Position numbers and translations under genes: made by a program | NCBI GenBank assembly: GCA_947493745.1 | Contig: CANLSM010000001.1 | Location: forward strand, 277,913-341,912 | Source: an uncultured Paracoccaceae bacterium | GTDB lineage: Bacteria; Pseudomonadota; Alphaproteobacteria; Rhodobacterales; Rhodobacteraceae | DNA: 64,000 bases | Reading direction: 5' to 3' | Shown here: piece by piece, positions 27,727 through 28,199 of the stretch | How the letters are laid out: the number at the start of each line of letters is the position of its first letter | Numbering within the stretch: position 1 is the first letter of the stretch | Notes under the pieces: generated by a model | The model's input: the letters and a program-made list of their open reading frames with translations, nothing else | The model's database searches: none | Told to the model about the DNA's origin: nothing

Positions 27727-27757
27727 TTGTAGACTCCAAGTACCGTCAAAATATACT
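27727..27757 (+). promoter_or_regulatory. Candidate promoter of the 44-codon gene
   Basis: TTGTAG (27727-27732) and TATACT (27752-27757) with 19 bp between them lie in an AT-rich patch upstream of the small gene at 27841. The -10 is good and the spacing is long, so the call is tentative. Confidence 0.35.
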
Positions 27758-27840
27758 ATATCTATGGTAGAATCACCTTCGTACCTCAAGCCTTAGCCTG
27801 ATACGCGCGGGCAACGGCCCGGGAAAGGAGGTGATAGCCA

Positions 27841-27975
27841 ATGGCCAAATCTACCAGAAAGATCGGACGAAGCGCCGTAACTGGACGTTTCACTACGGTC
27901 AGAAAGGCTCGCAACATGCCTAGAACGCATGTAGTCGAGACTTTGAAAAAACCGAAAACCCGAAAGGGTAAGTAA
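27841..27975 (+). CDS. Small basic protein, 44 aa, function unknown, very strong ribosome-binding site
   Basis: ATG 27841 opens a 44-codon frame ending at TAA 27973-27975, with 14 Lys/Arg residues (MAKSTRKIGRSAVTGRFTTV at the start, KKPKTRKGK at the end). Just upstream, AAAGGAGGTGAT (27824-27835) is an exact complement of the 12-base tail of 16S rRNA at optimal spacing, and a clean intrinsic terminator follows the stop. Together these make a complete, probably highly expressed single-gene unit. The RSAxTGRF pattern recalls small basic proteins annotated as hypothetical in other bacteria, from memory only. Nucleic-acid or ribosome binding is a guess from charge. The overlapping minus-strand frame is a shadow. 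Confidence 0.82.
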   Translation: MAKSTRKIGRSAVTGRFTTVRKARNMPRTHVVETLKKPKTRKGK

Positions 27976-27979
27976 GTTT

Positions 27980-28023
27980 CAGAGCGGTCCATTCTTGACG
28001 GAGGGGGCCGCTCTGTTTTTTTT
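27980..28023 (+). terminator. Intrinsic terminator after the 44-codon gene
   Basis: CAGAGCGGTCC (27980-27990) pairs with GGGCCGCTCTG (28005-28015), 11 pairs including one G-U, and is followed by eight T (28016-28023). It begins five bases after the stop codon. Confidence 0.9.
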
Positions 28024-28199
28024 GGCACATATCGACTCAAGATTCAATCAGTATTTTCAATCACTTAAAGATTGGTTAAGCTGAGTCAATTCAAGTAGTT
28101 AGACCAGAACGGCGTAGGCAAAGTGCCACAACAAAGGCAGATGGCAGGTTATAGAGAACTTTTGTCGTCCCATGATCGGCGACATGTGGGTTGGCTGAT

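Follow-up and report, generated by a model that had tools for sequence, protein, structure and literature searches.

A 44-codon open reading frame in the genome of an uncultured Paracoccaceae bacterium is a protein-coding gene under purifying selection, and it is very probably a selected member of a family of small mobile genes. The gene lies in the window, the whole stretch of 64,000 nucleotides analyzed here (assembly GCA_947493745.1, contig CANLSM010000001.1, positions 277,913 to 341,912), between what we take from the translations to be an ActR/RegA-like regulator and a BaiN-like oxidoreductase. Relatives of the gene are carried as passengers inside IS1595-family elements, and in one branch of the family it is preceded by a structured leader that abuts its Shine-Dalgarno (SD) sequence. 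The reading we prefer, put forward tentatively and at a little under even chances, is that the product may be a small basic protein that binds nucleic acid, accompanies mobile elements as an accessory and regulates its own translation; the window would hold a stranded, selected copy of its gene. The features on which this rests are as follows, in window coordinates.

27730 to 27757, plus strand: sigma-70-like promoter, TAGACT-N16-TATACT (pattern scan; invariant letters in 6 aligned sequences)
27765 to 27840, plus strand: structured 5' leader (leader alignment, covariation, folding)
27772 to 27780, plus strand: anti-SD arm opposite 27827-27835 of the SD (predicted 9-bp helix, minimum free energy fold; window folding)
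27796 to 27799, plus strand: conserved GCCT, with consensus-predicted pairing to AGGT (27829-27832) of the SD (RNAalifold, 15 leaders)
27808 to 27821, plus strand: hairpin CGGGC-AACG-GCCCG just 5' of the SD (19 leaders, covariation)
27824 to 27835, plus strand: 12-base SD, AAAGGAGGTGAT (read in the sequence, counted in the assembly)
27841 to 27975, plus strand: coding sequence of 44 amino acids, MAKSTRKIGRSAVTGRFTTVRKARNMPRTHVVETLKKPKTRKGK, plus stop (reading of the frame, codon-level conservation, relatives)
27980 to 28023, plus strand: intrinsic terminator with an 11-pair outer stem, inner hairpin and eight T (folding; weak in pattern scan)
28041 to 28101, plus strand: two loosely repeated conserved boxes after the terminator, GATTCAA..TTCA..CTTA and GAGTCAATTCA..GTTA (6 aligned copies, by eye)

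The small gene, its protein and its signals

Selection was assessed on the window copy and five relatives of the same layout (L013, L015, L020, L023 and L032). Over the 15 pairs that these six sequences provide, which are not independent, codon positions 1, 2 and 3 differ 111, 95 and 310 times, the third positions taking 310 of the 516 summed differences, and dN/dS for the 44-codon frame ranges from 0.05 to 0.24. Because the frame is kept in all five relatives at these ratios, we conclude that it encodes a protein. The original prediction had named loss of the frame in relatives as one outcome that would overturn it, and what is found is a conserved frame with a bias toward third positions. 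That so short an ORF, of only 44 codons, could be a chance frame or an artefact is refuted by this codon-level conservation, with relatives in several phyla also standing against it, and we give the idea practically no weight.

The encoded protein is basic, as had been foreseen, with 8 Lys and 7 Arg making up 15 of its 44 residues and a single acidic residue. AlphaFold2, supplied with 45 sequences, predicts a beta-alpha-beta fold with a strand at residues 5-11, a helix at 20-25 and a strand at 30-36 (pLDDT 89, pTM 0.59). Foldseek searches with this model gave no convincing structural relative in the PDB (best E 1.2, a 44-residue model being a weak query) and no convincing match among viral models (best E 0.07); the third-best viral-model match, at E 0.10, is a 44-amino-acid siphovirus protein that is 44% identical and is probably a family member. 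A sequence-profile search of the PDB revealed no solved relative (best E 0.84). An Acinetobacter relative (L082, 3992-4210) encodes a 72-amino-acid protein with two tandem copies of the core, a hint that the small protein unit may act as a dimer.

The signals around the gene are its own. The promoter pattern matches once, compared to a shuffle mean of 0.6, and its letters GACTC and TAC.ATAT are invariant across the six aligned sequences. The transcript would start near 27764-27766. The 12-base SD (AAAGGAGGTGAT) is present as described from the sequence, with a spacing of nine bases between GGAGG and ATG. Its exact 12-mer occurs twice in the 4.03-Mb assembly, where roughly 0.5 occurrences are expected by chance on both strands; the other lies within a coding sequence (read by eye) that is presumably GapR/DUF2312-like. 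A search of the assembly turned up no 16S gene, and full complementarity of the SD to the 16S tail of the organism itself is therefore presumed on general grounds. Also borne out is the 11-pair terminator. In the fold of 27980-28015, 11 pairs make up the outer stem and 4 the inner hairpin (-24.2 kcal/mol, z -4.38, with 0 of 200 shuffles as good), and eight T follow at 28016-28023; a simple terminator pattern scan is weak, with one match against a shuffle mean of 0.6.

In the six aligned copies, promoter letters, SD, ORF, terminator and post-terminator boxes align, and most of the sequence beyond does not. The picture of a self-contained unit, a conserved gene for a small basic protein with its own signals, therefore holds. 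Among relatives, a terminator-like hairpin lies within 70 nt of the gene in 31 of 95 distinct members, compared to 9 of 950 random 70-mers from the same loci, by a strict rule that misses the interrupted stem of the window itself. An SD of at least 9 bases is present at 22 of 101 loci and the full 12-mer at 2, these lengths being inflated by the choice of start codons in relatives partly by SD strength. The XRE/ImmA-type relatives have weak SDs and a dissimilar upstream region. That annotation can miss such a gene is illustrated by plasmids: with the relative L068 as query, no feature underlies the match in 4 of 4 annotated records, a fifth record being unannotated and the PLSDB gene table incomplete.

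A structured leader at the Shine-Dalgarno sequence

The leader contains a conserved structure next to the SD, supported by covariation, in one branch of the family. The SD-adjacent hairpin is common to 19 leaders, with 90.4% of cells paired and two-sided changes in 3 of its 5 pairs. Depending on the measure, 0 to 8 of 500 shuffles score as high, and slid versions reach at most 47.9% paired, for an alignment in which three rows with five-base loops are out of register and with the proviso that relatedness among rows can be enough to exceed such shuffles even where no structure exists. The consensus GCCT-AGGT pairing that RNAalifold predicts from 15 leaders has no two-sided change in its four pairs. 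An alternative GCCT-GGGC pairing was considered and proved weak.

When the window sequence from 27770 to 27845 is folded, GGAGGTGAT pairs with 27772-27780 over 9 bp (-29.3 kcal/mol, z -2.56, with 4 of 200 shuffles as good). In this predicted fold the GGGC arm pairs elsewhere, and that state and the SD-adjacent hairpin would therefore be mutually exclusive, in the manner of a switch. A 56-nt fragment of the leader folds no better than its shuffles (z 0.21). Across 22 leaders, which are not independent of one another, the SD core is paired upstream with a mean probability of 0.77 compared to 0.64 for shuffled sequences (p = 0.011). Pairing is below the shuffle mean in 7 of the 22 (L021, L023, L025, L026, L034, L036 and L059), and for the window leader 7% of shuffles reach the observed value. 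An anti-SD stretch upstream as a general trait was not significant in a duplex test of 21 leaders (mean z -0.59), a set that leaves out L104, an apparent copy of L034.

A covariance model of the leader finds one strong match in the genome of the window, the window gene (E 3.6e-11; next E 0.45), and across 98 sources its only matches at E < 0.001 are the 19 leaders on which it was trained. An Rfam scan of the window at gathering scores gave no match. Autoregulated leaders of the ribosomal-protein kind resemble this arrangement in pairing a small basic protein with a structured leader at the SD; unlike them, the small gene has no Rfam or ribosomal-protein match and is accessory in distribution, and its regulation is predicted.

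These results bear on the original prediction of very high expression, which the signals do not establish. In the complete leader the SD is predicted to be base-paired, and the hairpin with covariation lies directly beside it; translation may therefore be controlled, and on the folding models controlled translation is at least as likely as very high expression. A perfect SD alone is no proof that a gene is highly expressed.

A small-protein family on mobile elements

Members of the family are mostly 36-53 amino acids long and share the core KIGR[DS]A.TG.F.PV.EA..RP.TTVVETIK. The window protein matches no profile in Pfam, NCBIfam or PHROGs. An 81-member set gave nothing convincing in Pfam or PHROGs, with stray matches in 1 to 4 members (best E 0.024), and the NCBIfam comparison, which covered the window protein and three relatives, gave no match for those three either. 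A family of tiny proteins that mobile elements carry in several phyla thus seems to have no entry in Pfam or PHROGs, nor, as far as it was scanned, in NCBIfam. Our literature search, whose scope stopped short of most subscription papers and of the founding IS1595 paper, yielded no description of the small-protein family or of the IS1595 passenger. The passages available to us from PMC10117765 make no mention of the small gene, and those from PMC7371123 mention it neither by itself nor as an IS1595 passenger.

An alignment-query search of genome contigs identified 90 stretches encoding relatives, of which 80 were kept. By record title these belong to Alpha-, Beta- and Gammaproteobacteria, Bacteroidota, Chloroflexota, Nitrospirae and others, many being metagenome bins. 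Relatives also reside on 17 viral contigs and at three plasmid loci, in Paracoccus, Alteromonas and Hymenobacter. With L068 as query, a plasmid search matched a Segatella plasmid at E 4e-4 and, more weakly, a Vibrio record at E 0.01, and a phage search gave 3 weak records at E 0.003-0.009. The tblastn matches in a Klebsiella plasmid (L011) and an Erwinia phage (L012) were discarded as chance, their frames lacking the family core. The analyses of loci leave out L093-L100 and L140-L146, which come from the class and phylum searches.

At eight loci (L034, L035, L040, L056, L067, L073, L079 and L084) the gene sits between matching end repeats, which resemble CCTAATTATATACTTGA, flanked by identical 8-bp duplications. 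A loose end-repeat rule listed 11 loci, of which these 8 were accepted; because the same rule gives 9 matches on reversed sequences, we accepted a locus only where identical 8-mers came together with end repeats that match and with a transposase, as judged by eye. Target duplications at L063, L072 and L082 were rejected, as their end repeats match poorly. The IS1595 transposase model PF12762 matches 8 of 129 neighboring ORFs, a set taken from 265 candidates after 8 near-duplicate loci were dropped and the rest picked by eye as gene-like. The model is shown by name for L034, and the others are placed by 45-72% identity to the L034 transposase, with that of L035 resting on BLAST clustering of neighboring ORFs. 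Relatives of the small gene are passenger genes inside IS1595-family elements. They resemble known IS1595-family insertion sequences with passengers in having PF12762/PF12760 transposases, end repeats and 8-bp duplications; at the window copy, in contrast, neither transposase nor element ends were found. Read by eye, two IS1595-type loci have a convergent small ORF on the minus strand (L038, 308-511; L034, just after 4111) that runs at its end into the terminator region of the small gene. What could be taken for an RNA motif conserved in the loop of the terminator is better explained, again by eye, by such a convergent ORF end in the insertion elements.

The leader hairpin and a strong SD accompany the gene in different genomic contexts. 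In its own genome the small gene is present as one copy, with no second. No IS1595 element ends lie within 1.5 kb on either side of the window copy (L001), and PF12762 was not found in the assembly. These absences count against the preferred reading, under which the solo copy is probably a stranded piece of mobile-element cargo. Among the ORFs adjoining it there is no XRE/ImmA pair, and the translations beside it include no HEPN-like gene. A genome of the same genus (G001) has no match to the small protein and no clean empty site at the actR-baiN gap; the slot there (L120) is filled by other sequence with an HNH-like ORF (by eye).

Neighbors and competing explanations

Beside PF12762, the commonest Pfam matches among the 129 neighboring ORFs are Peptidase_M78 (13), HTH_3 (11) and HTH_31 (11), and PADLOC assigns up to 15 as RmrA, 13 as capP and 13 as capH. 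The ORFs near relatives that match capH/capP in PADLOC and M78/HTH_3 in Pfam recall CapH/CapP, the pairing of an XRE repressor with an ImmA/IrrE peptidase, whereas none was seen beside the window copy. The small protein is not known to belong to the CapH/CapP pair as described.

A second kind of neighbor raises the possibility, plausible on the sequences but on the unlikely side, that the small protein is an antitoxin-like partner of HEPN RNase-type toxins and that a solo copy would protect against such elements by anti-addiction. An RNX3H motif occurs in one of the next two ORFs at 12 of 18 loci, chosen non-randomly for IS1595, HEPN or leader context, compared to 4 of 81 other loci. The bare RX4H motif was rejected as evidence of HEPN, since it is common in controls (14 of the 18 chosen loci and 51 of the 81 others), and only the RNX3H form separates the sets. 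All 12 proteins in an alignment of HEPN-like sequences picked by motif have the R and the H, and 3 of 10 match Pfam HEPN models below threshold, three different models being involved. The promoter-like signal and terminator would suit an abundant antitoxin, and other loci have ImmA and, by eye, PIN-like neighbors. The likeness to HEPN toxin-antitoxin modules such as HEPN-MNT extends to a HEPN-like gene near a signal-bearing small gene in some relatives. However, most of the 101 loci have no such HEPN-like neighbor, nor does the window copy, and no match identifies the small protein as a nucleotidyltransferase. Typical antitoxins are also richer in acidic residues than the one in 44 found here.

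Persistence without benefit is the essence of a different explanation, in which the gene is a selfish hitch-hiker or an erosion relic of an IS1595 element with no role in its host. The IS1595 passengers among relatives fit this, as do solo copies with differing flanks and what looks by eye like a transposase gene that ends immediately upstream in L033 and perhaps also in L022. Yet solo copies retain promoter, leader and terminator, the frame is under purifying selection, and in three species the copies L020, L023 and L032 are flanked by the same genes, argG and a sulfotransferase gene, which makes a mere relic unlikely. Still less probable is the role first proposed, that of a constitutively very abundant housekeeping protein bound to the ribosome or nucleoid. 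The 12-base SD, promoter-like signal, terminator and abundance of Lys and Arg speak for it, but the gene occurs in only about 2% of sampled genomes: 7 of 295 at the family level (E 0.01, single-protein query), 8 of 385 at the class level and 8 of 398 at the phylum level (both E 0.001, alignment query), with the genome of the window counted each time. This sporadic distribution, together with transposon, viral-contig and plasmid contexts and an SD predicted to be paired, disfavors it.

We return to the preferred reading, in which mobile elements carry an accessory protein that governs its own translation. The product would be a small basic nucleic-acid-binding protein with the predicted beta-alpha-beta fold. 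Its leader would be able to hide the SD in a fold, and binding or refolding of that leader, by the protein or by some other signal, might ensure that the protein is made only when needed. In mobile elements the protein could serve as a regulator or protective partner of the traveling module, with its HEPN-like or XRE/ImmA genes, and in the genome of the window only the small gene with its control signals would remain. Small cargo genes of mobile elements are a known kind, and the structured leader is the variant here. More speculatively, and in our view rather doubtful, the family may constitute an undescribed portable riboregulated unit. Proteins of about 40 amino acids that bind nucleic acid, equipped in one alphaproteobacterial branch with an SD-masking leader and terminator, would provide control or immunity for HEPN, PIN and ImmA-XRE modules that transposons and phages carry, and would persist alone as chromosomal guards against those elements. 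The links to IS1595, HEPN-like and CapH/CapP-like genes, combined with a leader that may hide the SD, lead to testable claims on the control and persistence of small cargo genes.

Several further arrangements were observed among the relatives. A record titled Nocardioides marinus (L039) has an actinobacterial title yet a Rhodobacteraceae-type order of XRE, ImmA and small gene, and it is probably mislabeled or contaminated. XRE-ImmA-fusion-like and PIN-like ORFs (by eye) lie opposite the strand of the small gene at L037, L049, L076 and L078. Small Cas2/VapD-like ORFs (by eye) adjoin family members in three genera (L068, 4173-4451; L069, 2090-2374; L082, 3334-3612). In a Flavobacteriaceae metagenome-assembled genome (L081, 1084-2842), an XRE-like gene, the small basic gene and a patatin-like ORF (by eye) nearly abut, an arrangement that looks like a defense-type operon.
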